Shown in pieces: positions 14,601 to 64,000 of a stretch of DNA of 64,000 nucleotides; position 1 is the stretch's first letter; each line of letters starts with the position of its first letter. Below the pieces are notes generated by a model that saw only the letters and a list, made by a program, of their open reading frames with translations, did no database searches and was not told the DNA's origin. This DNA comes from Hypomesus transpacificus. Lineage: Eukaryota > Chordata > Actinopteri > Osmeriformes > Osmeridae. Where the stretch lies: positions 264,785-328,784 of the forward strand of contig NC_061064.1 of NCBI RefSeq assembly GCF_021917145.1, in the 5' to 3' direction. Made by a program: the position numbers and the translations under genes.

Positions 14601-16845
14601 TAGCTTAACTATGTCCTGTCGGAGACCTCCACTAGCCCACTACATCTTGTGGCACGCATTACATCTGCCAGGTATTGTTGAAAGATCATTTTTGGTGATC
14701 CATCCGGTGCTGACTTCCTTTTTCCGGCCCGGTCCTCCAGCGGAGGTGACCCCTACAGGCTGTACAACCTGGACGTGTTCCAGTACGAGCTGGCCAACCC
14801 CATGGCTCTGTATGGTGCCGTGCCCGTCCTGCTGTCCCACAGCGCCCAGAGGACCATGGGCCTCTTCTGGCTCAACGCTGCCGAGACCTGGGTGGACGTG
14901 CGCTCCAGCCCTGCCGACCAGGTGGGTCCTGCCGCTCCCAGAACGCTAATCACTTATCGCTAATCACTTATCGCTAATCACTTATCGCTAATCACTTATC
15001 GCTAATCACAATGGGATTGGAGCTGTAACCGCTTGTGTTGTTGTTGTTTGCCGTGGAGCAGGGTGCCAGCCAGGCTGCCCACACGGACGTGCGGTGGATC
15101 TCAGAGAGCGGGATCATAGATGTGTTTATCATGCTGGGGCCCAGGCCCTCTGACGTATTCACCCAGTACGCTAGTTTGACAGGTACACACACACACTCCC
15201 TGACACACACACCCTGACACACACACACACTCCCTGACACACACTCCCTGATACACACACACTGACACACACACACACAGTGGAGCACAGGTGTTCCCCA
15301 CACACTGAAGAACACACACAGAGAAGCACAAGTGTACCACACACACACACACACACAGAGAGAGACAGAAGCACCTAGTGTTCCTCTCCCAGCTAACACC
15401 CTGTGTCTCTCCTCTAGGAACCCAGGCGTTTCCTCCTCTCTCTGCTCTGGCCTACCACCAGTGCCGCTGGAACTACAACGATCAGGAGGACGTGTTGGCG
15501 GTGGACCGGGGCTTCGACGAGCACGACATCCCGTACGATTTCATCTGGCTGGACATCGAGCACACGGACGGCAAGCGCTACTTCACCTGGGACAACAACA
15601 AGTTCCCCCGGCCCAAAGACATGCTGCAGACGCTCAAGGACAACAAACGCAAGGTGCGTTCCTGAGGGTGGATCACTGAGGCTAGGCACATCATCATCAT
15701 AAGCTATTATTTCAGACACTTACTAGGTCCGTAGAATAAAAGACAACATGCAGACAAACATATAATGGCCAGGGTTTCCCAGATTTGTTAAGAAGCTCTT
15801 AACGCTAAGAGCTTCTTAAGAACGTTTGAAGAGCGCTCTAAAACGCTCTTAGAATGCTCTTAGAACGCTCTTAAGAAGCTCTTAGCGTTAAAAGCTTCTT
15901 AAAAAATCTGGGAAACCCGGCCAATAACATCACGAAGTACATCATTTTTTGAGGAGGCTCAGACACCAGTGAGTCCACATATTAGAAAAGTATTGTACTG
16001 AACTTAATGCTGGATTGGTCAGTACCAGGATGATACTGTTCATCAGATGTATTGTTTAACTGTGTAACCCCCTTTCCCTAGATGGTGACTATAGTGGACC
16101 CTCACATCAAGGTGGACAGTGCATACAAGATCCACTCTGAGATTCGCTCCAAAGGCTTCTACATCAAAAACAAAGATGGTGGAGACTACGAAGGCTGGTG
16201 CTGGCCAGGTAGGCATGGCTCTTAGCTCAAGCCAGGCCAGTATGCTACGTGGCTTATTGTTATCCCAGTAAGCTATTTATTACAATGTCTTCTGAGGACA
16301 GAACTACACTTTTTACAACACTGTAAGCATGCTGGTCTTCTACACTACATCATAAAACACCTTGTTTGTGCATGGTAGAGTTAGGGGTGTGGTGATCGTG
16401 GTGGTGAGTTTCCTCACCTTGGAGACTAAGTGACTGTGTTATTTTGTTTCCTAGGGAACGCTGGGTATCCCGATTTCACCAACCCTGAGATGAGGAGCTG
16501 GTGGGCTAGCATGTTTGGATATGACCAGTATGAGGTGAGTCCATCCTGTCACATCTAGCAGGGGGTGGGGGGTTAGCCACACCTCCTCGTTCTCTCTCTT
16601 GGTTTAGCCCTCAGCCTGTCGCCCCCCCCCCCCCCCCCCCCCCCTTGTCTGTGCTCTGTTGCACCACTCAGGAATCTTTGTACTCTCCTGAATCTTCAAG
16701 GATGAGTAGATAGATAGGTTGCCCCCTCACTACTGATTTACCTTTATGACCCATGATACGCTGATCTGTGTGTTTCTGCTGTCCCGTCGTGCCTCTGTGT
16801 CCAGGGCCGCATGGACATTAACCGTAACAACAATGTATTCATAGA

Positions 16846-16902
<57 letters not shown>

Positions 16903-19900
16903 TCTCAGGGTTCCATGGAGAACCTGTTCACGTGGAACGACATGAACGAGCCGTCCGTGTTCAACGGGCCGGAGGTGACCATGCACAAGGACGCCCTGCA
17001 CGGCCCTTGGGAGCACAGGGACGTGCACAACCTGTACGGCCTCTACGTGGTGAGGGGGGGGGGGGGGGCAGGGCTCACAGGAGGGGGGGGACCCAGGGCT
17101 CACAGGAGGGGGGGGGGGGGGGGGCAGGGCTCACAGGAGGGGGGGGGGGGCAGGGCTCACAGGAGGGGGAGGAGGACCCAGGACTCACAGGAGGGGGGGG
17201 GGGGTGGCCCAGGGCTCACAGGAGGGGGGGGGAGGACCCAGGGGGGGGGGGGTCAGGAGGGTGCAATGGTTGGGGAGGGGGGAAGGGGAGAAGGAGAGGA
17301 GATGTTCCTTGCTTTATTCTACATTGTCCATCGATCCGAAATACATTCGAGCAGACATTTTATGACTCGACTGTACTTTATTGCTCCGGGTACTTTACCT
17401 CAACCCTCCTGCTTCATGAATAATTAATGACTCGTTTAATTTTCCATCCATCTGTGTCGTTTTCTGCTCTCCTGTTTGCTGCCTCCTCCCAGCACATGGC
17501 CACAGCGGAGGGGCAGGTGCAGCGGTCTGGAGGCCTGGAGAGACCGTTCGTCCTGACCAGGGCTTTCTTTGCTGGCTCTCAGCGCTACGGTACCAGACTC
17601 ACACCTCCACCTGACACCATGAAAACATTTGGCTCTTTTCCCCCCCACACACACACAATGAAACGACAAAGCAACAATTATTTGCGTAGAAACAAACGTT
17701 CTCACGTCTGAGAAATGTGCATGACCCTGTGGTGTCCATGTTGGGCTGTGGGTACGGCTCGGTGGGAGAGCATGAGACTGCAGATGGAGGGATCCCAGGG
17801 TCTGTAGTGCAGCAGGTGTCTTGACGTCCCTCAGTAACGCAGCGTGCTGCTGCTCCTGTCCTGGCAGGGTCTGTAGTGCAGCAGGTGTCTTGACGTCCCT
17901 CAGTAACGCCGCGTGCCGTCTGGTCCTGTCCTTGCAGGGGCGGTGTGGACGGGGGACAACGCTGCGGAGTGGGGCCACCTGAAGATGTCCATCCCCATGT
18001 GTCTCAGCCTGGGGCTGGTGGGCATCTCCTTCTGCGGAGGTCAGACTCGGATTCCAACCCTGTGAACCTCTTAATAATAATAATAATAATAATAAATTAT
18101 ATTTATAATGCACTCAATATTTAGACAATCTCTGAGTGCTACAAAGCATATAGTAATAAAATTACAAAAAAAGAATCAAAGTTTATTAATTTGTTATTTT
18201 AATTTTAAGATCAAGGTCAATAAATACTTCATTTAAAAAAACACATTTCATGAAAAGCTTATTTCTTAATGCGACACGCTCCCCCCATTGTCCTGTGGGT
18301 AACTCTGGCTCCTGTGCGTCCTCCTAGCTGACGTCGGGGGGTTCTTCAAGTCCCCCGGGGAGGAGCTGCTGGTGCGCTGGTACCAGGCCGGGGCTTACCA
18401 GCCCTTCTTCCGCGCCCACGCCCACCTGGACACCCCCAGGAGGGAGCCCTGGCTGTTCGGCCCCCAGAACACGGCTCTGATCCGGGATGCGGTGCGCCAG
18501 AGATACGCCCTGCTGCCCTACTGGTACCTCTGCTTCTACCAGGCTCACCGCAGCGGGCAGCCCGTCATGAGGTCAGAGGTCAAACTCCTACGGGACAGCT
18601 CAGATCTCACTGGGAATACTACGAGTTAATGAAATGTGTTCATTAAAGGTTGTGTTCCCCCTTCCTCTCTCACACTTTCACTCTGTCTCTGATCTCCTTC
18701 TCTCTCTACTTTTCTCTGTCTATCTCGTGGTCGCTCGCTCTCTCTCTCTCTCTCTCTGTGTGTGCTTCAGACCGTTGTGGGTGGAGTATCCTGAGGAACC
18801 GGCTACATTCTCTATCGAGGACGAGTATCTGATTGGTGAGAAGCTGGAGAAGGTTTCCTGAGTGTACACCGTGATCTAAGCTGTCTGGTGAAGCACAGTG
18901 ATGACGAGTCTTGGATAAATGTTTATTACTACTGAGGCGCATGTAACAGTGATCATTAATGTTCATGATTCCCTGTGTCAGGTCGGGATCTCCTGGTTCA
19001 CCCGGTAACAGACGAGAAGGCGTCCGGGGTCACCGTTTACCTTCCTGGGGAAGGAGAGGCAAGTGTCCACCAGCACAACCTCACCTTATATATTTCATTT
19101 GCTTAACAGACACTTTTATCCACAGTGACGTACAAATAGTGCATGTAGAAAATACAGATCCGTTGATGCGGAATACATCTGGAGTTTCTGCTAACATGGA
19201 TCAGTTTTCTGCTAACATGGATCTGTTTGTGTTTCTTGTTGCCGGGCAGGTTTGGTACGACGTGCACACGCTCCAGAGTCACCATGGAGCTCAGAACCTG
19301 GACGTCCCCGTCACCATGAGCTCAGTGAGTTGTGTGTCCAGAGTTGTGTGTTTCATCCAGAGCTCTCTACAACAGTGCATGTAAAGTACAGCAGGAATTC
19401 AGAAGTACATGGTTCTGACAGTGCTTTGTTGGTCAAGGAAGTCGGGGAACAGTCTGTATTTACTAGCCACAGTGCAACCATGACAACACCTCCTCTTCTC
19501 CCAACTCTCCCCTGGCTCCTGTCCCATTCTGCCCTCTCCTCCTCAGATCCCAGCGTTCCAGCGAGGAGGGTCCATCATCTGCAGGAAGAACCGTGTCCGC
19601 AGGTCTTCACTCTGCATGGAGAGCGACCCCTACACTCTCTATGTGGCCCTGGACACACAGGTAAACACCTGTGTTATCTAACTACTATCACAAGACGGTA
19701 AACACCTGTGTTATCTAACTACTATCACAAGACAAGCTGTGGGTGTGAAGACTAGTAACATACTGTAGCCAAGGACAGAGAACACTTGTCAGATTACGAC
19801 ATGACTGAAGTGATAGTTTACTGAACTTGACTGGACTGTACTCATCTCTACTCAAGTTTGAGGCAGTTCACCGTTAGCAGAACATTGCAGACATGCAGTG

Positions 19901-22565
19901 TAGGGAAATGCCTCACGGGCCGACGGCGCTACATAATTAAATGAAACCAAATGAGTAAGCTCATGTAAAACAAATATGCAACAAAAACATCGAAGACAAC
20001 GAAATAAAACATCAATAAATCCAGTGTGGGGAGGGGGAGGGTCTGGTGGGCTTGTAGCGGGGTGAGGATGTGTGGGGAGGGCTCTATTTGACTCTTCTAT
20101 TCTTCTCCAACCCCTGGTCTTCCTCTCTGCTGTAGGGCAGGGCTGAGGGAGAGCTCTACATAGACGATGGCCACTCCTTCAAATACCAGACTGAGCGCCA
20201 GTTTGTCCACATGCGCCTGAGCTTTGCTAGCCACACCATCACCTCCAGGTAGGCCCTATTACATCCCGTGCATCAGGCCTTCTGCACTGTATATATACCC
20301 CCCTCTGTGTTCTCCTCTGGTTGTGCTGACGGTAGGATGACCTCTGGTTGTGCTGACGGTAGGATGACCTCTGGTTGTGCTGACGGTAGGATGACCTCTG
20401 GTTGTGCTGACGGTAGGATGACCTCTGGTTGTGCTGACGGTAGGATGACCTCTGGTTGTGCTGACGGTAGGATGACCTCTGGTTGTGCTGACGGTAGGAT
20501 GACCTCTGGTTGTGCTGACGGTAGGATGACCTCTGGTTGTGCTGACGGTAGGATGACCTCTGGTTGTGCTGACGGTAGGATGACCTCTGGTTGTGCTGAC
20601 GGTAGGATGACCTCTGGTTGTGCTGACGGTAGGATGACCTCTGGTTGTGCTGACGGTAGGATGACCTCTGGTTGTGCTGACGGTAGGATGACCTCTGGTT
20701 GTGCTGACGGTAGGATGACCTCTGGTTGTGCTGACGGTAGGATGACCTCTGGTTGTGCTGACGGTAGGATGACCTCTGGTTGTGCTGACGGTAGGATGAC
20801 CTCTGGTTGTGCTGACGGTAGGATGACCTCTGGTTGTGCTGACGGTAGGATGACCTCTGGTTGTGCTGACGGTAGGATGACCTCTGGTTGTGCTGACGGT
20901 AGGATGACCTCTGGTTGTGCTGACGGTAGGATGACCTCTGGTTGTGCTGACGGTAGGATGACCTCTGGTTGTGCTGACGGTAGGATGACCTCTGGTTGTG
21001 CTGACGGTAGGATGACCTCTGGTTGTGCTGACGGTAGGATGACCTCTGGTTGTGCTGACGGTAGGATGACCTCTGGTTGTGCTGACGGTAGGATGACCTC
21101 TGGTTGTGCTGACGGTAGGATGACCTCTGGTTGTGCTGACGGTAGGATGACCTCTGGTTGTGCTGACGGTAGGATGACCTCTGGTTGTGCTGACGGTAGG
21201 ATGACCTCTGGTTGTGCTGACGGTAGGATGACCTCTGGTTGTGCTGACGGTAGGATGACCTCTGGTTGTGCTGACGGTAGGATGACCTCTGGTTGTGCTG
21301 ACGGTAGGATGACCTCTGGTTGTGCTGACGGTAGGATGACCTCTGGTTGTGCTGACGGTAGGATGACCTCTGGTTGTGCTGACGGTAGGATGACCTCTGG
21401 TTGTGCTGACGGTAGGATGACCTCTGGTTGTGCTGACGGTAGGATGACCTCTGGTTGTGCTGACGGTAGGATGACCTCTGGTTGTGCTGACGGTAGGATG
21501 ACCTCTGGTTGTGCTGACGGTAGGATGACCTCTGGTTGTGCTGACGGTAGGATGACCTCTGGTTGTGCTGACGGTAGGATGACCTCTGGTTGTGCTGACG
21601 GTAGGATGACCTCTGGTTGTGCTGACGGTAGGATGACCTCTGGTTGTGCTGACGGTAGGATGACCTCTGGTTGTGCTGACGGTAGGATGACCTCTGGTTG
21701 TGCTGACGGTAGGATGACCTCTGGTTGTGCTGACGGTAGGATGACCTCTGGTTGTGCTGACGGTAGGATGACCTCTGGTTGTGCTGACGGTAGGATGACC
21801 TCTGGTTGTGCTGACGGTAGGATGACCTCTGGTTGTGCTGACGGTAGGATGACCTCTGGTTGTGCTGACGGTAGGATGACCTCTGGTTGTGCTGACGGTA
21901 GGATGACCTCTGGTTGTGCTGACGGTAGGATGACCTCTGGTTGTGCTGACGGTAGGATGACCTCTGGTTGTGCTGACGGTAGGATGACCTCTGGTTGTGC
22001 TGACGGTAGGATGACCTCTGGTTCTGTCTCCCTGCAGCCCCCTGTCCCCTGAGTCCGTCTTCTCCACGGCCTCGTGGGTAGAGAAGGTGATCATCCTGGG
22101 AGCCCAGAGACCCAGCGCCGTCACCCTCACCACACAAGGTCAGTCATGGGACAACTCTGGGACACCTACCGTCTCTGGAGATGGGGAGACCTCGCTGAAT
22201 GGCTCCTCTGTCTTCCTTGGGGGGTAGTTTGGTTATGTGCTGGTCTGAGGGTGTCTATGAAGCATTCTGTGACTTGTTAAAGCGGCAGTACAAATAAGAT
22301 TTCATGAACTGTCAGCTCCAGTACCAGAAGCATCTGTGTTTGGGTTTTGTCAGCAGTTGTTTTTGTCTGTCTTTCAGACTGGTGAAGAGTGTGTGTACTG
22401 TTATGAGGTGATCCCACAGTGACTGTTCCCCCCCCCCCCCCCCCCCCCCCCACAGATGGGAGCGAGTCTTCTCTGGAGTTTGAGTTTGACGAGGGCTCTG
22501 CTGTGTTGAGCCTGAGGAAGCCAGGCGTTAACGCAAGCCTCAGATGGAAGGTGCAGCTGCAATAA
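10426..22565 (+). CDS. ganab: Neutral alpha-glucosidase AB (ER glucosidase II, catalytic alpha subunit)
   Basis: GH31 enzyme of the ER lumen that trims the two inner glucoses from N-glycans for the calnexin cycle. Exons: 10426-10445, 10880-10981, 11712-11820, 12247-12374, 12508-12687, 13085-13150 (cassette), 13899-13965, 14278-14353, 14461-14557, 14741-14921, 15062-15182, 15418-15653, 16082-16208, 16455-16534, 16909-17049, 17493-17589, 17938-18039, 18328-18571, 18771-18835, 18982-19058, 19250-19324, 19547-19660, 20136-20248, 22038-22138, 22456-22565. These give 942 residues with the cassette and 920 without. A signal peptide ([16 protein letters not shown]) precedes VDRGNFKTC. The nucleophile is Asp in [10 protein letters not shown] (about 541) and the acid/base Asp is in WTGDN (about 616). 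Start 10426 is in frame across intron 1 and has a strong Kozak context; ATG 10881 is the alternative. Confidence 0.96.
11217..11710 (+). repeat. CT-rich microsatellite tract in ganab intron 2
   Basis: About 490 bp of C/T-dominated sequence with a pure (CT)n core near 11440-11508, reaching right up to the exon 3 acceptor (CCGTGCAG at 11711). It therefore doubles as a very long polypyrimidine tract. Ser/Leu/Pro reading frames across it, and Arg/Glu frames on the other strand, are artefacts. Confidence 0.9.
12160..12246 (+). repeat. Three imperfect copies abutting ganab exon 4 acceptor
   Basis: The motif CGAAACGTAAACGCTGTGAC occurs three times with small changes (GAGAAACGTAAACGTTGTGA, then GCGAAACGTAAACGCTGTGA, then GCGAAATGTAAACGCTGTGA). 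The last copy runs straight into the acceptor TCCGCAG of exon 4 (12247). As a result this acceptor has almost no polypyrimidine tract. Confidence 0.8.
13085..13150 (+). other. ganab: Probable cassette exon of ganab (66 bp, 22 codons)
   Basis: Flanked by acceptor TGCTCCAG and donor GTAACT, phase-preserving, no stop. It encodes [20 protein letters not shown] plus flanking split codons. Skipping it joins exon 5 (12687) to exon 7 (13899) in the same phase. Mammalian GANAB is known as two isoforms that differ by a 22-residue insert at this place, between the N-terminal beta-sandwich and the acidic linker. I infer that it is alternatively spliced here too. Confidence 0.8.
14943..15010 (+). repeat. 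14-bp tandem repeat in ganab intron 10
   Basis: Nearly five head-to-tail copies of CTAATCACTTATCG, all identical except the truncated ends. It starts within 25 bp of the exon 10 donor (14921). Each copy contains CTAAT, a fair branch-point-like motif, but it is far enough from the acceptor (15061) that use as a branch site is not implied. Confidence 0.9.
15186..15362 (+). repeat. CA/ACTCCCTGACAC compound repeat
   Basis: A mixture of short (CA)n runs and repeated ACTCCCTGACACAC-like units in ganab intron 11, starting four bases after the donor. Low complexity; no coding meaning. Confidence 0.85.
15767..15922. mobile_element. Foldback MITE-like element in ganab intron 12
   Basis: A 156-bp near-palindrome. 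The ends GGCCAGGGTTTCCCAGAT and ATCTGGGAAACCCGGCC are inverted copies. The inner arms are built from repeated CTCTTAAG/CTTAAGAG and GCTCTTA units (AAGAAGCTCTTAACGCTAAG on the left, its complement on the right). No coding capacity; target duplication not evident. Single-stranded, it would fold into a long hairpin. Confidence 0.75.
16848..16900 (+). repeat. (TG)26 microsatellite at ganab exon 15 acceptor
   Basis: A perfect TG run of about 53 bases ends 8 bases before exon 15. Only GGTCTCAG lies between it and the exon, so the UG run occupies the place of the polypyrimidine tract. Confidence 0.95.
17050..17270 (+). repeat. G-rich minisatellite after ganab exon 15 donor
   Basis: Degenerate copies of CAGGGCTCACAGGAGGGGGG separated by runs of 7 to 13 G, beginning inside the donor itself (GTGAGGGG). 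It has many runs of four or more G, so it can form G-quadruplexes in DNA and in the pre-mRNA. Gly-rich reading frames here are artefacts. Confidence 0.9.
17748..17804 (+). repeat. tRNA-Cys-like SINE head remnant
   Basis: GGGTACGGCTCGGTGGGAGA followed by GCATGAGACTGCAGATGGAG resembles a diverged tRNA-Cys 5' half (A box region plus the CTGCAGAT anticodon stem region), as at 32081, 35159, 39631, 42241 and 63507. It is cut off by the duplication that follows. Confidence 0.55.
17797..17937 (+). repeat. Tandem duplication that includes the ganab exon 17 acceptor
   Basis: Two 70-bp copies, each beginning AGGGTCTGTAGTGCAGCAGG and ending in an acceptor: CCTGTCCTGGCAG at 17867 and CCTGTCCTTGCAG at 17937. 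The second joins exon 17 in frame (G|GG GCG GTG). The first would add 70 bases and break the frame, so it is a decoy. Confidence 0.85.
20313..22023 (+). repeat. 27-bp minisatellite, about 63 perfect copies, in ganab intron 23
   Basis: The unit CCTCTGGTTGTGCTGACGG + TAGGATGA repeats with no visible change for about 1.7 kb. The array stops 14 bases before the exon 24 acceptor (CTCCCTGCAG, exon at 22038). Because 27 is a multiple of three and the unit lacks stops in several frames, long repetitive reading frames arise on both strands; none is a gene. Each unit carries TGCTGAC, a strong branch-point-like motif. The array ends by turning into the real polypyrimidine tract. Confidence 0.97.
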
Positions 22566-34285: not shown

Positions 34286-37200
34286 ATGGACAAAGATACA
34301 GGTTCTGCAGCTACGAGCTCTCCTGACTCCGACGCAGCGCGGAAGCGCAAAGTGCACGGCATGCTGAAGCTTTATTACGGTCTGAATGAGGAAGGAAAGA
34401 CCGTGGATCAAGCTGAGTCGCTAGATCCTTGCGATATAAACGGGCCACATTTTGATCCTGATGTGTATCTCAACAAGGTAAATGAGACGTGTTTTTGCAA
34501 TTTGTTCACTATTTCTCTAAAGCCGTATATGCTGTAGCGATTGTATAGTGTTCCATGTTGCCACACTATAGGCCTAGTAGTTGGTTGAAAGGTAACGTCA
34601 TCTGGAGATGCAGTGAAGTAGTCGGTTAAGGGTGGTTCAGCTATCAGACAAGCTGTAGGCCAACTCTGTGTTGTTCATTGATTGTTTCTTTTGGGTGTTT
34701 GCAGCTGAGGAGAGAATGTTCTCTTGGGGAGTTGATGGATCAGGAGACCTGTATGGTCAAGCAGATCCGCTCCTTGGACAGTGACATGCAAACTCTGGTG
34801 TATGAGAACTACAACAAGTTCATATCTGCTACTGGTGAGAAGACGAATCTCTAGCCCAACCATGATCTTTTTATTTTCTTTCTTTTTTCACTGTAAATAT
34901 TGGACATTATGATTTTGACCGTGATAAATCTTGCCCTGCTCGTCCTCACCAGACACCATCAGAAAAATGAAGAATGATTTCAAGAAGATGGAAGACGAGA
35001 TGGACTGCCTCACCACCAACATGGCCGCCATCACAGAGTTCAGTGCCCGCATCAGTGGGACTCTTCAGGATCAGCACGCTCAGATCACCAAACTGTCAGG
35101 TAGAAAACCCACACAAGCAATCATCTCACGCTCGTATGCATCTCCATCACTATCTTGATAATGGGTATAGCTCAGTGGAAGAGCATTTGACTGCAGATTG
35201 AGTTCAAATATCCCCTCCCATAACCTCCCTTTCTCTCTTCTTCTCCTCGCTACCCCTCCTCTCCCCTCTCCTCTCTACCCCTTCTCTCCCCTCTCCTCTC
35301 AACCCCTCCTCTCCCCTCTCCTCTCCTCTCTACCCCTCCTCTCCCCTCTCCTCTCTACCCCTCCTCTCCCCTCCACCTCCTCTCCCCTCTCCTCTGTACC
35401 TCTCCTCTCTACCCCTCCTCTCCCCTCTCCTCTCTACCCCTCCTCTCCCCTCTCCTCTCTACCCCTCCTCTCCCCTCTCCTCTCAACCCCTCCTCTCCCC
35501 TCTCCTCTCTACCCCTCCTCTCCCCTCTCCTCTCTACCCCTCCTCTCCCCTCCACCTCCTCTCCCCTCTCCTCTCTACCTCTCCTCTCTACCCCTCCTCT
35601 CCCCTCTCCTCTCTACCCCTCCTCTCTACCCCTCCTCTCCCCTCCTCCTCCTCTCCCCTCCACCTCCTCTCTACCCCTTCTCTCCCCTCCTCCTCCTCTC
35701 CCCCCTCCTCCCCTCCCCCCTAACCCTTCAGGGGTGCACACCCTCCTGAGGAAGCTGCAGTTCTTGTTCGAGCTCCCGGCCAGGCTGAACAAGTGTCTGG
35801 AGATGCAGGCCTACTCCCAGGCCGTGAGCTCCCACCGTCGAGCCCGCTGCGTCCTGCAGCAGTACAGCCACATGCCCTCCTTCAGGGGCATACAGGACGA
35901 CTGCCACGACATCATGGACAAGCTGGCGCTGGAGCTAAGGCAGAAGTTCAGGTAGGGCTTGGTCTCTCTCTCTCCAATTCAGGTAGGGCTTGGTCTCTCT
36001 CTCCAATTCAGGTAGGGCTTGGTCTCTCTCTCCAGTTCAGGTAGGGCTTGGTCTCTCTCCAGTTCAGGTAGGGCTTGGTCTCTCTCTCCAGTTCAGGTAG
36101 GGCTTGGTCTCTCTCCAGTTCAGGTAGGGCTTGGGGTCTCTCTCCAGTTCAGGTAGGGCTTGGTCTCTCTCTCCAGTTCAGGTAGGGCTTGGTCTCTCTC
36201 TCCAGTTCAGGTAGGGCTTGGTCTCTCTCCAGTTCAGGTAGGGCTTGGTCTCTCTCCAGTTCAGGTAGCGCTTGGTCTCTCTCTCCAGTTCAGGTAGGGC
36301 TCTCTTTCCAGTTCAGGTAGGGCTTGGTCTCTCTCTCTCCAGTTCAGGGAGGGCTTGGTCTCTCTCTCCAGTTCAGGTAGGGCTTGGTCTCTCTTTCCAG
36401 TTCAGGTAGGGCTTGGTCTCTCTCTCTCCAGTTCAGGTAGGGCATGGTCTGCCCCTCTCTGCACCTCCAGCCGTCTCTAGGAGGGGATCCCTCCGATCTG
36501 TTTTAAAGATCCCAGTTCAGATGAAGACACCTTGTGGTTTGTGTCCGCAGGGACGGAGGCTCCAGTTCCAAGGACCTGTCTGAGTGCGTGGAGCTCCTGC
36601 TGCAGCTGGACGAGCCGGCCGAGGAGCTCTGCGACAAGTTCCTGAGCCACGCCCAGTCACGGCTGGAAGCAGACCTCCTGGGGCTGGAGGCGGAGCTGGT
36701 CCAGCCTCCCCCCCCTTCCGCCGCCGCCGTGGCCGAACCCCCTGCCGTGTCCTCTCACAGGTCTCCCTCCGGCGCCTCCCCGAGAGCCAGCGCCCTGCCC
36801 TCTCCCAGCTCCCGGACGGACATTTTAGAATTCATTGACCGAGGTTGCAACGAGTTTGTCAGCAGTCTGTGCCTGGTGATCGCGTCTTACCAGGAGCTGT
36901 TCGTCAACCGGCCAGAAGAGGGCGACCTCGTGTCCCAAAACATCCCCGGGATGGCCAACGGCAAGCTGCATACTTTCGTAGACAACCTGGCCTCCCGCTA
37001 CTTCTCCCTGGTGGAGCGTAGGATCCAGGAGGAGAGAGGGGTCGGGGATAACTCCCTGCTGGTCCGCGCTCTGGACCGCTTCCACCGCCGGCTCCAGGCC
37101 GTGACCAAGCTCCTCCCCGGGTCCGCGGTGCCGAGCCAGGGGACGGAGATCGTGGTGCGGGCGGCCAGGGAGCGGATCAAGCAGTACCTCGCGGCCCTCC

Positions 37201-39906
37201 AGAGCTTCTACCTGGACAGCCTGACTGACGTGAGGCAGGCCCTGGCGGCACCTCGGCTCTCTGTGGGCGGGGCCTCGGGGGTGGGGGGCCACGGGGGGTC
37301 ATCCATGGGGAAAGACAACCCCACCAGCCTGCCAGAGCTGCTCTCCTCCCTGTCCGCCTCCATTCTCAACCAGATCAAGTCTGTGTTGGCGTCTGTGCAC
37401 CTTTTCACGGCAAAGGACATTACCTTCTCGAACAAGCCTTACTTCAAGGTAAGGATGCTCAAGCTGAACCTGTGCAGTTAGGAAGCTCTTTCAAGATCTG
37501 ATATGTGCCTTCAGATCTTGTTTTCTACCCCCAGATCTGGTTTTTATCCTGTTCCAACGTCTGTGTTCAGAGTGAGTCTAGAGCAGGTATAAATAGCTTC
37601 ACCCAACCTCCCCCTCGCCCCCCCATCATCAACACCATCTCCTAGCCTCTATAGTTTGTGGGCGGGGGTCAGATGGCTGAGCGGTTAGGGATTCGGGCTA
37701 TTAATCAGAAGGTTGTTGGTTCGATTTCCGGCCGTGCAAAATGACATTGTGTTCTTGGGCAAGGCACTTCACCCTACTTTCCTCGGGGAGAATGTCCCTG
37801 TACTTACTGTAAGTCTCTCTGAATAAGAGCGTTTGCTAAAATGACTAAATGTAAATGTTGTGCGACCACACCTGCTTACTGTGCGTCTGCCCGTCCTCCT
37901 GCCCGTCCTCTTGCCTGTCTGCAGGGGGAGTTCTGCAGCCAGGGGGTGCGAGAGAGCCTCGTGGTCAGCTTCATCAAGTTTGTGTGTCAGTCGTCCCGCC
38001 AGTTCTGTGAGAGCGCGGGGGACAGGGGGGGGTCCACGCCCCCCGCCCTTCTCTTGCTCCTGTCCCGTCTCTGCCTGGACTACGAGACCTCCACCATCTC
38101 CTACATCCTCACCCTCACGGACGAGCAGTTCCTCGTGCAGGTAACGGTTCACTTTGAAGATTCTTGATCTGAAGTTTTCCTAGATTTATGTTTATGAATG
38201 TACGCATATTAGTGCGTGTGGTAAAAAATAGCAGATAATCTAGTATCTGAAGTGTGTTGTTGTGACAGTGTTTCGCTGGTCAGAGTCAAGGAAAGGGTCT
38301 GTATTGTTTGCCAGGAACAGTTCAACTGTGATCTCTCAGTAAGGAGGTAAAAACAACGTCACGACAGGAACGTTGTGTGTTTAATCTCTTGCTCCTCTCC
38401 CTCAGCATCATAGTCCTGTAACCGCGGTAACAGCTTTGTGTTCAGAGGCTCGCGAGGCAGCACAGAAACTGCTGAATCATTACGTCAAGGTGCGTCATGG
38501 TTACAGTCATTATCTATTATATACATTGTTGATAAGAATATTAAACCAACATAGGATTAGAATTTATGCATGAATAGGATTAGGATAGACTGCTAGGAAA
38601 CTTGGAAGAAGGCCAAAAATTAAAATGTACTTAATAATAAATAAACCTGAAACTAGAAAATACATTTATTCTGTTTTTCCAAGTACCATGGTTCCTCCCA
38701 GCCCGAACAGGGCTGTTATCTTACCCACCAACTGGCTCTGTGTGCAGGTTCAGGGTCTGATCATCTCTCAGATGCTGAGGAAGAGTGTGGAGACGAGGGA
38801 CTGGGTCAACACCATCGAGCCCCGGAACGTGCGAGCGGTGATGAAGAGGGTGGTGGAGGACACCACGTCCATCGACGTGCAGGTAAAGCTCACATCCACA
38901 CAGCCGGCCCTCTTCCTCATAGCATCATGTGACTCTCTGAGCAACCTCAATTTGTGCTACTGCTTCCTGACTGGCTGAATGTTGAGACCCTCCACTTGTT
39001 GTGCTGCGTCCTGATTGGCCCCCGTACTCCCTGCAGGTGGGCCTGCTGTATGAGGAGGGTGTGAGGAAGGCCCACAGTAGTGACTCCAGCAAGAGGACCT
39101 TCTCTGTGTACAGCAGCTCCAGACAGCAAGCCCGCTACGCTCCCAGTTACACGCCCAGGTTACTAACCCTTTCTGCTTGGTTTTTATACTGTAAACAATT
39201 AGATTTAGATTTTTGATATTTCATATTTGTATGACTTTCTTCTGCAGTGCACCCATGGATACCAATCTCCTGAGCAACATACACAAGCTGTTCTCAGAAA
39301 GGATTGATATCTTCAGCCCGGTAGAGTTTAACAAGGTAGGAGCGAACAAGAATAGGTTCTTAGTTAACCACACACCGAAAAAATCTGGATTTAGTTTGTA
39401 TTTGTCTGTTGTATTTTCCTATCACGGCTATTGTACATTTCTTACATTGAAGAAATGTTGAATGTCATTCACCATCTTTCCATCCAACACCTTCTGTCTC
39501 TGACGTCATCTCTTCTCTCAGGTTTCAGTGTTGACGGGAATCATCAAGATTAGCCTGAAGACTTTCCTGGAGTGCGTCCGTCTGCGCACCTTCGGTCGCT
39601 ACGGCCTGCAGCAGATCCAGGTACGGAGCAGAGCTTAGCGGGCAGAGCAGTCCCCTGCAGATTAAGAGGTCCCAGGTCCAAATCCCCCCTGTACATTGCT
39701 TGAAAAGTGTCTCCTTGGTGAACACATGTATTGTTCTTATCCAGGTGGACTGCCACTACCTGCAGATGTACCTGTGGCGCTTTGTCTCAGACGAGAACCT
39801 GGTCCACTTCCTCCTGGACGAGATCGTGGCCAGCACCGCCCACCGCGGCCTCGACCCCGCCCCCATGGAGCAGAGCGTCATCGAGGTCATCTGTGAGAGG
39901 GGTTAA
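34286..39906 (+). CDS. vps51: VPS51, subunit of GARP and EARP tethering complexes
   Basis: Shared subunit of GARP (with VPS52, 53, 54) and EARP, which tether endosome-derived vesicles at the trans-Golgi and recycling endosomes. Exons 34286-34477, 34705-34834, 34953-35099, 35732-35951, 36551-37448, 37925-38140, 38406-38489, 38748-38882, 39037-39158, 39248-39335, 39522-39620, 39745-39906 give 830 residues (human about 782). The N-terminal Vps51/Vps67 domain includes [29 protein letters not shown] and [20 protein letters not shown]. Exon 5 is unusually long (898 bp) and contains a Pro/Ser/Ala-rich insert that accounts for the extra length. Later blocks [34 protein letters not shown] and the end VIEVICERG are conserved. 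Introns 3 and 4 are filled by repeats. Identification is secure. Confidence 0.96.
35159..35728 (+). repeat. SINE scrap and 500-bp pyrimidine tract in vps51 intron 3
   Basis: First a tRNA-Cys-like scrap (GGGTATAGCTCAGTGGAAGA, to about 35212). Then comes about 510 bp of C/T sequence made of 24-26 bp units of the form CTCTACCCCTCCTCTCCC CTCTC. The tract runs to within 10 bp of the exon 4 acceptor (CCCTTCAG, exon at 35732), acting as a very long polypyrimidine tract. The Ser/Pro/Leu reading frame across it is an artefact. Confidence 0.9.
35947..36445 (+). repeat. 29-bp minisatellite starting on the vps51 exon 4 donor
   Basis: About 18 copies of TTCAGGTAGGGCTTGGTCTC + TCTCTCCAG, 27-31 bp each. 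The first copy is the real exon end: exon 4 finishes ...AAGTTCAG and the donor GTAGGG follows at 35952. Every copy thus repeats the last five exon bases, the donor, and a CT-rich stretch ending CCAG that resembles an acceptor. The genuine acceptor of exon 5 (GTCCGCAG, 36550) lies outside the array. Confidence 0.95.
37668..37858 (+). mobile_element. tRNA-derived SINE (plus orientation)
   Basis: In vps51 intron 5. Head GTCAGATGGCTGAGCGGTTA with a good A box (TGGCTGAGCGG) and B box (GGTTCGATTTC). Body TGTTCTTGGGCAAGGCACTT. Tail AGAGCGTTTGCTAAAATGAC TAAATGTAAATG. It is the same family as 6359-6553. Head and tail are both present, so it looks close to full length (about 190 bp). Confidence 0.8.
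39631..39695 (+). repeat. tRNA-Cys-like SINE remnant in vps51 intron 11
   Basis: AGCTTAGCGGGCAGAGCAGT then CCCTGCAGATTAAGAGGTCC and CAGGTCCAAATCCCCCCTG. The order (A-box region, anticodon arm, B-box region) is that of a tRNA-Cys-headed SINE, without the tail. Confidence 0.6.
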
Positions 39907-44515: not shown

Positions 44516-46357
44516 TTAATTTATTTCTTTGATCAACACACCCTTCCCTCTTCCTTTTTTCCAACTCTCTTCTACTCTCTTCTTCTCTCCTTCCAAAGCT
44601 TTCCTTCCACCCTCCCTCTTCCTCTGCTCTCGCCACAACTCCGCAGCCAGTTTACACAGCGGCTGGCCATTTTCAGACACCCAAGCTTGAAAAAATTCAC
44701 ACTTCTTCATGGCCAGGAAATACTTCCGTCTAGTGTCCCCGTCTCCCCCTCTCTTGGGCAGGGCTGCCCTGGCCTGAGACAGGGCTGAGCTGAGCTGGCT
44801 CAAAGCTGCCAGGCAGTATCCCAAAGTGTCCTGGCTACTCCTCCCACTCATAATATGAGCCACAGCCTTCACTGCCCTGTCTCCAGCCCCAGGGTCCTCT
44901 TGGTCAAAGTAGCCCCCTGCTAGAAGGGCAGCCTGTCCACCCTCAAGGGCTTCCGGGACCGAGTTGAATACCCGGCCTGAGCTCAGAGACTCAGACACAG
45001 CTAAGATCGTCTGGCAAAACTCCTGAGTTACATCCGGCTCCAAGTCACCGTTGAATAGTCTGAGGGCGAACGTGTAGCCGAACAGGACGTTGACCAGGCC
45101 ATAACAAACGAGTGGGGATGGATTGGAGGAGAGTGAACTCAGTGGAGGGATTTGGAGGCTAACAGGAGGCACACCAGTTGTTGGTTTAGATCTTAGGACA
45201 CTGCTGACAACGTTCTGTTTGCCGTTTTGTTTGCCGTCACCATCTTCAGTCACTAACTGCCCTCCACTCTCAGACAGCTCATCTGCCCACTTGACTTTTT
45301 GGCTTTCTGACCTTCGTTTTGGCTCGTTCAAAACCTTCTCCTGTTTCTGTGTGTCCTCTACATCTCCTGCACAGCTCCTTCCCTCCACGGCTGAAACACC
45401 TCCCTCCAGGTCGCTTGAATCCTCCTCCAGGAGCTCCACCAGAGCTTCCCCCCGCTCGCCCTCCTCGTGTTCCTCCCACCATGGCTTCCATAGGGGGACC
45501 AGCACACCCACCGTCCCCCCCTTCACCAGACTCAGAAACTGGTCCTTCTCCTGGCTGGTGAGGCGCTCCCACAGGGCCTCCTCAGATACAGTCTGGATGT
45601 CCAACCCAGATAGCCTGTCGACCAAATCTAGCTTCTCTTCATCCTCGCTTCCCTCATTGCTGTTTCCGTCAGCCCCTTCTTCGCCCAGCTCACCGATCTC
45701 TTTTAGACGGGCTAAAATGTCCTCAATCTCTTCAGGACTCCCGTCACCAGTTGACTGAATCTCAGCTAACCTTGACAGAAGCTCTAGAGACTGTGTGGTT
45801 TCTTCATCCTCCCCCTCAGCATCATCCCAGCCATCTTCCGTTTCCTTCATCCCACACGTCTTCATCCCACACGTTTCCACTCCCTCGGCCCCATCTGGAG
45901 CGTGTCTCAGTTTCAGAAGAATCTCTTGCATCCTTCTCTTCCCCTCGCTCTCCGTTTCATTCGTGGCCTTCAGTTCCCGCATCACAGACTCTTTGTAGAA
46001 CTCCTCTGAACACACCGAGTGGTTTGTACTTCTGTAGCACACAAGGCTACAGTAGGGTACGTTGCAACGTGGGCAGGTGTAGCAGGAAAGTTGGGATAAA
46101 CACAGCCCGCACACAGGCCTCTGTGTCTCGACACATGCATTATCAGAAGACCCACATTCCTTCCCGTCGTCGGTTGCCGGAGTCAAGAATTCACCTTGAT
46201 TGACGCTTCCTCGGGCTGGGAGCTCAATCCCACCTCTTATAATAGTTCCAGGCTCTTCGTCAGTCCATTCGCTGCAGTGATGTTGTTCTCGGGGTCTGAT
46301 GTCTGTCAATAATGTCCTAATGTTCGGGGGGATTCTCTGCCGTAGAACTGGATTCAT
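44516..46357 (-). CDS. znhit2: Zinc finger HIT domain-containing protein 2
   Basis: Intronless gene of 613 codons; ZNHIT2 helps the R2TP/RUVBL1-RUVBL2 machinery assemble the U5 snRNP and box C/D particles. The zf-HIT module is complete: C83-x2-C86-x8-C95-x2-C98-x4-C103-x3-C107-x5-H113-x2-C116 (VCGLCLSQLSCYTCPRCNVP onward). After it comes a long acidic, Glu/Asp/Gly-rich middle (about residues 150-380) that is much longer than in mammals (about 400 residues in total). The C-terminal folded part (CYGLVNVLFGYTFALRLFNG, FFQAWVSENGQPLCKLAAEL) matches the family. The tail is basic. Start is the first ATG; MNPVLRQRIPPNIRTLLTDI is a credible N-terminus. The antisense frames in this span are shadows. 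Confidence 0.94.
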   Translation of the reverse strand: MNPVLRQRIPPNIRTLLTDIRPREQHHCSEWTDEEPGTIIRGGIELPARGSVNQGEFLTPATDDGKECGSSDNACVETQRPVCGLCLSQLSCYTCPRCNVPYCSLVCYRSTNHSVCSEEFYKESVMRELKATNETESEGKRRMQEILLKLRHAPDGAEGVETCGMKTCGMKETEDGWDDAEGEDEETTQSLELLSRLAEIQSTGDGSPEEIEDILARLKEIGELGEEGADGNSNEGSEDEEKLDLVDRLSGLDIQTVSEEALWERLTSQEKDQFLSLVKGGTVGVLVPLWKPWWEEHEEGERGEALVELLEEDSSDLEGGVSAVEGRSCAGDVEDTQKQEKVLNEPKRRSESQKVKWADELSESGGQLVTEDGDGKQNGKQNVVSSVLRSKPTTGVPPVSLQIPPLSSLSSNPSPLVCYGLVNVLFGYTFALRLFNGDLEPDVTQEFCQTILAVSESLSSGRVFNSVPEALEGGQAALLAGGYFDQEDPGAGDRAVKAVAHIMSGRSSQDTLGYCLAALSQLSSALSQARAALPKRGGDGDTRRKYFLAMKKCEFFQAWVSENGQPLCKLAAELWREQRKREGGRKALEGEKKRVEESWKKGRGKGVLIKEIN

Positions 46358-47380
46358 GGTGTCTTTAAAACAGACGTGTTAACGTGGATTGAAACGTTAG
46401 TGGCGCTCTATATAATTCTGAAAAGAGACAAGAACTTCGTTGAGAAATTATGGTGGTTGGCATATGCTTACAACATGTTGCAATCAAGTTTCTTAGTTAT
46501 AACCTTTTCGTTGTACTCTTAATAAAACTAATCGTCAATGTTACTGACTGGACATTTAGGTTATCTAGCTAAACAATTCGACGATAGCAGCTGTCTAATA
46601 ACTACCTTAAAATTCTGAATCCATGGTATGAACGTAACCTCAAGAAACTGCAGTTATGTAGTCAGAACGTTCTACATATAAAGGTTTTCGGTCATTTGTT
46701 TATTTCATTGCCATTTTCAGAACCCACGATCGCATGTGTTTTGCCGCACGTTGTTTTAGTGGTTGTCGTAAATTGGATCTGGATGACGTCAAACTGCTGT
46801 AAAATAATTGCAAACGTAAAGTGCTTCTTTTTTTTTTGCAGTTTCTTGCTGACATAAGAAATTCATCTAGATTCAAGGCCTTTGCACTCTTTGACTCAAT
46901 ACCAAGTACACCAACATTTCTTAATCTCATCTGACATTTTGGTAACGTTAATGTAAAGTGGAAATGTTAAGAAAAAATGGTGTGCTGCATAGGAACGCCA
47001 GCAATGTAGTGACTAAATGTCTTGGTGAACAAAAATGTCTCATGTAACTGGCCCCTATCTGCTCCCCCACCCCCTCTAGAACCAGCTATGAATCCTCTTA
47101 AAAAGCAGGAAGTTTGCAACGGAGTATGTATTTATTATAAAATAACATATCAAAGACAACTGATGTTTTGAACTACATTTGTTTGTTGTGTTACATATAA
47201 ATACTTTTTCTTGACATCTTGGACAAGCTTCATATTGTAGTCAGACAACAGTTGGATGTCTGACAGCATTAATGTTTACGTCTGTGAATCATGAAGTCGT
47301 CTCTTCCTCTGAGAAGTTACTGTAGAATTGCAGTGACTTAGCAATGGGCTTCCCCTCACTTGACTGACCCACTTGTCCTG
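46358..47380 (-). other. znhit2 promoter and mrpl49 3' region
   Basis: Unique AT-rich sequence between the znhit2 start and the mrpl49 stop. Minus-strand AATAAA (TTTATT at 47131-47136) is a good end signal for mrpl49, about 250 bp after its stop. The rest is the znhit2 promoter. No repeat or extra gene recognised. Confidence 0.5.
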
Positions 47381-62715: not shown

Positions 62716-64000
62716 ATGGCAGACAGAAGTCAAGTGTGTTCAATATGGGTGGGATCGGAAACAGGGATTCTGAAAGGTAAAACAACGTATTCTTCCAGAA
62801 ATTCTGTGTTAATTTTGTAGCAAGACATAACGGCTAACAGATGTTACACGTGGGTTGCCTACAGAGTTCGTATTGACGCTGGACTTTTTAACAAACTACA
62901 TGTTTTTAACAAACGACATGTTTTTAACTTAACTAGCTAGATAAGTCGAGCAGTCTAATGTAAACTAGGGGCCCATTGTATGCAATTAGCTTGTTACCCC
63001 TTCTAATGACACTGGCAACAGGATTACATACACTATATAGCGTTTTTCTTCTACAGGTGTCAGCCTATCCAAAAAACAGGCTTTCAATTTCTGTGAGATG
63101 AGTTGTCTGAGCCGAGACCAGGAGGTGTGCGCGCTGTGCTGGGGTGACCAACACGAGACCGAGGTGCGTGCGTGTGTGTATGTGTGTGAATGTGAACACC
63201 TGCTGCTCAGTAGTCAGAGCTTGCTGTTAAAACCAAACCAAAGTGGATGACGGACACAATCTAAGTGAACGGGAGATGAGTGGTGAGCCCAGTCCTCATA
63301 CCACCCCCTCCCGCCTGTCTCCTCCAGGTCTTGGTGGGCTCGGTAAATGGTACGGTGAAAACGTTCAGCACTGAGAAAGGAATCTTCACTGAGACGAGGC
63401 AGTGCGGGGACATCGGCCAGGGAAAGTTCACAGGACTTGCTGTGACAGACAGGTATGGGCAAGTGACACTCCAGTGTAGGTCTAGGTCTTAAAGGGTCTC
63501 ATTCAATGGTAGAGCATGGGGATGGGTATAGCTCAGTGGTAGACCATGGGGATGGGTATAGCTCAGTGGTAGATCATGGGGATGGGTATAGCTCAGTGGT
63601 AGACCATGGGGATGGGTATAGCTCAGTGGTAGAGCATGGGGATGGGTATAGCTCAGTGGTAGACCATGGGGATGGGTATAGCTCAGTGGTAGATCATGGG
63701 GATGGGTATAGCTCAGTGGTAGATCATGGTAATGCGGTATACTGAGTATGGTACTGTGAGGTGTGGTATGTATATCTGTTAATGAAAAGGATTAGTGGTT
63801 AAACTCTTGTCTGTCCGCGCAGTTCTCTGATCACGTGTGTGGAGTCGGGACTGCTGCGGGTGTGGAAGGAAGGAAGCACCGACACAGTGAGTGACTGACT
63901 GTGTCACATCAATTACAATCCTTCTTCACCTTTGGATCTAGTTAAGGTTCCACCTGGTGCTCTGTATCCAGGTAGAAATCAACGCCGGGAAGAACGTGTG
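62716..64000 (+). CDS. wdr74: WD repeat-containing protein 74 (5' part, cut by window end)
   Basis: Nucleolar WD40 protein (yeast Nsa1) that works with the AAA ATPase NVL2 in 60S ribosomal subunit maturation. Visible exons 62716-62776, 63057-63163, 63328-63452, 63823-63886 and 63972 onward encode about 128 residues. These include the N-terminal WVGSETGILKGVSLSKKQA, CALCWGDQHETEVLVGSVNG, TVKTFSTEKGIFTE and SLITCVESGLLRVWKEGSTD, matching the first two WD40 blades of human WDR74. The gene continues beyond the window. Intron 3 contains a tandem array of a tRNA A-box unit. Start is the first ATG (CTATGGCAGACAG). Confidence 0.93.
63507..63735 (+). repeat. 30-bp tandem array of a tRNA A-box unit in wdr74 intron 3
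   Basis: Seven full and two partial copies of GGGATGGGTATAGCTCAGTG + GTAGACCATG, differing only at AGACC/AGAGC/AGATC. The unit is the first 20 or so bases of the tRNA-Cys-headed SINE found elsewhere in the window, with the Pol III A box TAGCTCAGTGG intact in each copy and no B box. The reading frame of a 10-residue repeat across it is an artefact. Confidence 0.95.

Follow-up and report, generated by a model that had tools for sequence, protein, structure and literature searches.

A perfectly uniform 27-bp minisatellite beside the acceptor of a probable ganab intron in Hypomesus transpacificus

The array and its host intron

We analysed a 64,000-nt stretch of the Hypomesus transpacificus genome (assembly GCF_021917145.1, contig NC_061064.1, positions 264,785 to 328,784; the whole stretch is called the window here) in which a tandem array of 27-bp units lies in the penultimate intron of a gene that is probably ganab. 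The ganab gene encodes a sugar-trimming enzyme and is required for glycoprotein folding. The host intron (20249..22037, + strand) is 1789 nt in length, with the donor CAG/GTAGGC and the acceptor CTGCAG/CC. It is bordered by an exon at 20136..20248 (+), located by protein match and hand placement, and by a 101-nt exon at 22038..22138 (+); these are exons 23 and 24 in the numbering of a preliminary description of the window that was made from its letters. The best PDB match of both exons was neutral alpha-glucosidase AB (8d43; E 1.9e-07 and 1.5e-04), which suggests that the gene is probably ganab and not its paralogue ganc. Hand placement of 22 exons, covering the 3′ part of the gene and leaving out the 5′ exons, gave a single open frame through to the stop codon, interrupted by 21 introns; one exon, 22 codons long, is presumably similar to the additional exon of GANAB isoform 2. 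An in-frame TAG stop (20250..20252, +) immediately follows the upstream exon, so that intron retention, or use of any donor within the array, would end the protein there. As the downstream exon is 101 nt long, skipping it shifts the frame.

The array (20314..22023, +) comprises 63.33 copies of CCTCTGGTTGTGCTGACGGTAGGATGA that are 100% identical, both Tandem Repeats Finder and a direct script giving a period-27 run of 1710 bp with 0 mismatches and 0 indels. It starts and finishes with the 9-bp sequence CCTCTGGTT. Its edges are sharp: the adjacent 27 bases match the unit at 7/27 and 6/27 positions, and the flanking sequence does not consist of degenerate units, the left flank having the 6-mer CCTCTG in common with the unit. 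Minisatellites are head-to-tail arrays of units of roughly 6–100 bp in many copies, a description that fits 63.33 copies of 27 bp. The preliminary description had claimed about 63 identical 27-bp units, which proved correct apart from the start (20314, not 20313), and had put the array 14 bases before the CAG of exon 24; 14 bases is indeed the gap to the exon, CAG included, while only 11 separate the array from the CAG itself. At up to three mismatches, the unit was not found elsewhere in the 437-Mb assembly (376 contigs): there were at least 63 matches, a lower bound as are all such counts for repeats in this search, and all lay in the array. A dispersed-repeat or transposon-derived origin was rejected on the basis of this confinement.

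Without the array the intron would be 79 nt, and with one unit plus 9 bp it would be 115 nt. The other 20 placed introns of ganab range from 107 to 748 nt, so that 115 nt is a normal length for this gene. In an intron so small, any array is bound to be near a splice site, and the distance of 14 nt to the exon is therefore no surprise.

As a background we took 200 kb from two contigs (11.5 and 17.8 Mb), in 20 stretches of 10 kb each. This sample contained 123 arrays with a period of 10–100, of which seven were at least 300 bp long and one exceeded 1000 bp; none of the seven was perfect, the longest (1476 bp) matching at 93%. Other long arrays vary likewise, with 85 to 97% match in the sample and 83 to 90% in the window, where short perfect arrays do occur (14944–15009 and 19660–19733). 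So long arrays are no rarity in this genome, and it is the perfect purity at 1710 bp that is the outlier. Assuming a rate of 1e-8 per site and generation, one would wait about 58,000 generations on average before 1710 bp acquired a first substitution, a rough figure since slippage can erase variants. The identity of the units and the sharpness of the edges support the suggestion of the preliminary description that the array reflects a very recent expansion or homogenisation.

Splice signals and other properties of the unit

Every unit contains CTGAC. In the last unit it lies at 22000..22004 (+) and supplies a putative branch A at 22003; from there to the intron end it is 34 nt, in agreement with the distance of about 34 bases given in the preliminary description. 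An ATGAC in the same unit (22011..22015, +) could supply the branch A at 22014 instead, at a distance of 23 nt and with no intervening AG. Each unit also carries one TAG, whose G sits 6 nt past the A of CTGAC, and this limits branch-site use. The TAG of the last unit (22007..22009, +) is 28 nt 5′ of the exon, whereas downstream of any branch site except the last the TAG of the next unit would follow after about 33 nt, ahead of the true acceptor. Under the AG-exclusion rule, as set out in the accessible part of PMC1431707, the nearest upstream AG at 28 nt places the branch site within about 28 + 15 nt of the exon. There are four CTGACs in the last 120 nt of the intron and the last one alone passes; the second-last is 61 nt from the intron end, beyond the limit, and all others are farther away. 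Among the CTGACs, then, the rule leaves one site compatible with the acceptor and not the several that would make a multi-branch-site intron. Our table of AGs used 12 extra bases instead of about 15, which leaves the result for the array intron unchanged, and included AGs up to 12 nt from the exon, a point that affects intron 7 only.

Motif matches need to be read against their background frequency. When the letters of the unit were shuffled, 1.7% of the products contained CTGAC and 25% contained YTNAY; with dinucleotide shuffling the shares were 21% and 51%. Among the 20 other ganab introns, 11 show a permitted YTNAY 15–50 nt from the intron end. Branch-like motifs are so common in shuffled units that a motif match alone is weak evidence. 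The geometry is more telling: with only 14 nt between the array and the exon, and a shortest intron of 115 nt, the branch site is very probably inside the unit, and the CTGAC or ATGAC of the last unit is very probably the one used. The same geometry supports the proposal of the preliminary description that the array grew from the branch-site region. The array also serves as a caution that copies of a motif are not the same as usable sites, since, with an AG in every unit, the AG-exclusion rule admits the last unit only.

In addition, there are 63 donor-like sites, ACG/GTAGGA, one per unit (span 20332..22007, +; first GT at 20332, last at 22006). We scored splice sites with matrices built from 19 other ganab introns, leaving out the array intron and a probable GC-AG intron of the gene as placed (GAG/GCAAGT, at 19059). 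The donor-like site of the unit scored 6.75 versus 7.67 for the real donor, and its complementarity to U1 extended to five of nine positions versus seven of nine. The real acceptor scored 7.52 and the TAG of the unit −0.26. Use of a donor in the array would extend the upstream exon by 83 + 27k nt (83 nt for the first). The unit has no AGGT, and the array is not one of dual-specific or recursive sites.

Further roles for the array were considered and set aside. Compared with dinucleotide shuffles of the whole stretch, folding appeared strong, with z −2.92 for 21902–22037 (200 shuffles) and z −11.96 for 20249–21220 (20 shuffles), but shuffling the whole stretch is an unfair control for a repeat. 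The fair control was a shuffled unit tiled in six copies: dinucleotide shuffling gave 117 of 400 units that folded at least as well and letter shuffling 177 of 400, and an RNA structure bridging the intron was rejected as special on the ground that this folding is ordinary. A coding function was rejected because reading on from the upstream exon meets the TAG at once; that reading frames across the array are open follows from the unit length of 27 bp. No Rfam family reached its gathering score in the window, and a search of phage records with 20240–22240, which is uninformative about fish, gave no match.

Origin of the array and competing explanations

Taking these results together, we consider it probable that the array is a young and mostly tolerated minisatellite that arose by recent slippage expansion in a small intron, its inner copies being bystanders. 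The ancestral intron would have been about 115 nt, with the 9-bp direct repeat CCTCTGGTT present twice, 27 bp apart, and spanning the branch-site region. Expansion between short direct repeats is a usual account of the birth of minisatellites; here, slippage or unequal exchange between the two copies of CCTCTGGTT may have multiplied the unit until there were 63 identical copies. A complete 3′ splice site would survive in the last unit together with the 14-nt remnant of the acceptor, and splicing would run from the original donor to the original acceptor via the CTGAC or ATGAC of the last unit, past inner copies that would take no part. The array is a real, very pure and probably recent intronic minisatellite that includes the branch-site region, and any function is probably slight. 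It looks like an intronic repeat that is very young and in other respects ordinary, comparable to the one in the human disease gene ABCA7 (below). It would be a clean example of a repeat that swallows the branch-site region and leaves splicing formally intact as the last copy stays beside the acceptor.

Some of our results weigh against this interpretation. The donor-like site of the unit outscores all but five of the 373 other GTs in the 19 introns. The TAG of the unit is equalled or exceeded in score by 66 of 283 other intronic AGs, which makes it a middling decoy and not the worst. Given that the donor of the unit comes close to the real one and that its TAG is middling, the bystander status of the inner copies is not certain. 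Pairs of TGCTGAC spaced by 27 bp numbered 104 in the genome (both strands), of which 62 were within the array, and the reversed pattern numbered 12. Moreover, tandem arrays cluster near splice junctions. Seven of ten arrays in ganab lie within 20 nt of a junction versus 2.45 expected (p 0.0014), and with three introns of a vps51-like gene of the window (described below) the count becomes 10 of 13 versus 3.27 expected (p 0.0; 20,000 simulations). The counts were nine of 12 versus 3.13 (p 0.00025) when only periods of at least 10 were kept and five of eight versus 2.4 (p 0.042) when two-letter-rich arrays were also dropped. The null was uniform placement in two genes with hand-placed introns, two intron ends being off by one base without effect on the counts. 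Clustering above the uniform expectation indicates that placement may not be chance; it is a lead only, being trivial in part owing to pyrimidine tracts and CA/TG runs.

An alternative that we regard as unlikely is that the array carries decoy signals, its 63 ACG/GTAGGA sites competing with the true donor or disturbing recognition of the next exon, so that a longer array would mean less ganab. The small gap between the donor scores (6.75 versus 7.67), with only five of 373 other GTs as high, favours this, and every donor-extended transcript, beginning with the 83-nt extension, would carry the TAG stop at 20250. A precedent exists in intron 18 of human ABCA7, where, according to the accessible portion of PMC5954066, a 25-bp intronic tandem unit beside a splice site carries a donor per unit, the length of the array correlates both with skipping of exon 19 and with reduced expression, and one isoform keeps a single unit. 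As there, the unit in ganab contains a splice signal, here judged by sequence score only (a donor-like site and branch-like motifs), and its 63 units compare with about 12 to 427 in ABCA7. In the same portion of that report, however, the one-unit retention isoform did not change with length and only skipping of the next exon varied. Use of the repeat donors being independent of length in ABCA7, a length effect in ganab, if any, need not run through donors. The ABCA7 array, as described there, also differs in flanking the upstream exon and including the real donor, whereas in ganab 65 nt separate the donor from the array, which takes in the branch region; the correlation between length and splicing belongs to ABCA7. 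U1 complementarity (five of nine versus seven of nine) and a scoring matrix derived from just 19 introns further weaken this explanation. A length effect on splicing as in ABCA7 is possible and, if true, would make the array a non-human parallel of the ABCA7 repeat. If repeat number does tune splicing, the 63 donor-like sites would explain it no less well than the branch motifs.

It is improbable that the array is an effect of assembly, that is, that the real array is shorter or more varied and that the assembler or polisher lengthened and homogenised it. In favour of such an artefact are the identity of all units across 1710 bp and the fact that none of the seven other arrays of at least 300 bp in the sample is perfect; on the other hand, variation persists in other long arrays of the assembly (matches of 85 to 97% in the 200-kb sample and of 83 to 90% in the window), the sampled contigs are 11.5 and 17.8 Mb, and the array edges are clean.

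There is likewise a slim chance that the array acts as a length-dependent brake on ganab, its 63 donor-like sites and 63 branch-like motifs without good acceptors loading U1 and SF1/U2 on the intron so that copy number sets how often the penultimate exon is correctly joined. A likeness to the array is seen in Gomafu/MIAT, in which, according to the available text of PMC3116199, tandem copies of the branch-site motif UACUAAC bind SF1 and delay splicing in vitro; these copies are common to all Gomafu homologues examined there, chicken included. Unlike the ganab array, they are exonic, sit in a nuclear non-coding RNA and have the optimal UACUAAC, whereas the ganab motif is an intronic CTGAC in a unit found at one locus. 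In the dog, a seven-bp repeat in intron 5 of LHX3 also lies in a very small intron, and its number sets the distance between donor and branch site (PMC3223203, as excerpted); there, loss of one unit leaves the intron too short (68 bp), whereas the ganab intron with one unit plus 9 bp is about 115 nt. Should the array prove to be such a brake, it would, together with the vps51-like array, indicate that tandem duplication repeatedly multiplies splice signals in this genome. Finally, the idea of the preliminary description that some 60 branch sites are usable and that their number tunes splicing of the C-terminal exons is not supported and is very improbable: CTGAC is in every unit and the last is at a normal branch distance, but the TAG of each unit puts even the second-last CTGAC, at 61 nt, outside the AG-exclusion limit, the inner copies have no good pyrimidine tract before the next AG (score −0.26), and the motif is fairly frequent in shuffled units.

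Neither an intronic repeat in ganab nor one described as multiplying branch sites came up in the open-access literature, which was surveyed mostly at surface level. In the parts available, PMC5379132 treats branch points in connection with a single-base variant and not a repeat, PMC7352778 names intronic repeats in hTERT as splicing elements, and PMC2688266 treats the repeat content of fish genomes.

Other arrays and features of the window

Smaller tandem duplications also touch splice signals in ganab. Two-copy duplications are present at 19660–19733 (37 bp, taking in the donor) and 17796–17939 (69 bp, taking in the acceptor region). In intron 7, 4.7 perfect copies of CGCTAATCACTTAT (14944–15009) lie 52 nt before the acceptor with YTNAY motifs in each copy, forming a second small array of branch-like motifs in the gene.

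A second gene, putatively vps51 judging from its protein, carries an array at 35945–36450, where about 17.7 imperfect units of roughly 27–29 bp open the intron 35952–36550 (donor score 6.2, acceptor 7.0). Its units repeat the exon end together with the donor (AGTTCAG/GTAGGGCTTGGTCTCTCTCTCC; TTCAG/GTAGGG), giving 16 donor-like sites of identical score, 15 of them beyond the first, and 13 of these 15 extra donors adjoin an acceptor-like AG of score at least 5 (AG/GT). By its sequence this array would appear to consist of tandem AG/GT dual-specific, recursive-like sites, and it is perhaps more interesting than the ganab array. The likeness is to the dual-specific splice-site array of UBC (PMC10809524, in the part available), where splice signals are multiplied in step with a tandem repeat; that repeat, however, is coding and its AG/GT is used as both donor and acceptor, and of the two arrays in the window the vps51-like one has AGGT whereas the ganab unit lacks it. 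In the intron before this one, a pyrimidine-rich 25-bp array (35242–35715) stops 16 nt short of the acceptor, so that one vps51-like exon has on either side an array in contact with its splice signals. The exon at 36552–37448 of the same gene gave no match in Pfam or PDB.

Elsewhere in the assembly, other arrays of period 27 with TGCTGAC, made of a different unit, lie on contig C2 near 2,731,000 and on contig C3 near 339,000, their units being TGCTGACCTCCTCTGTGACCTCCTCTG and TGCTGACTGGTGCAGGCTGTGTCTCTG. In the window, a HIT zinc finger is encoded at 44519–46378 (−). An array of 7.9 copies of a 30-bp unit at 63503–63741 (95% match), the unit of which has GGGTATAGCTCAGTGG in common with 35163–35178, looks like a piece of a tRNA-derived element.

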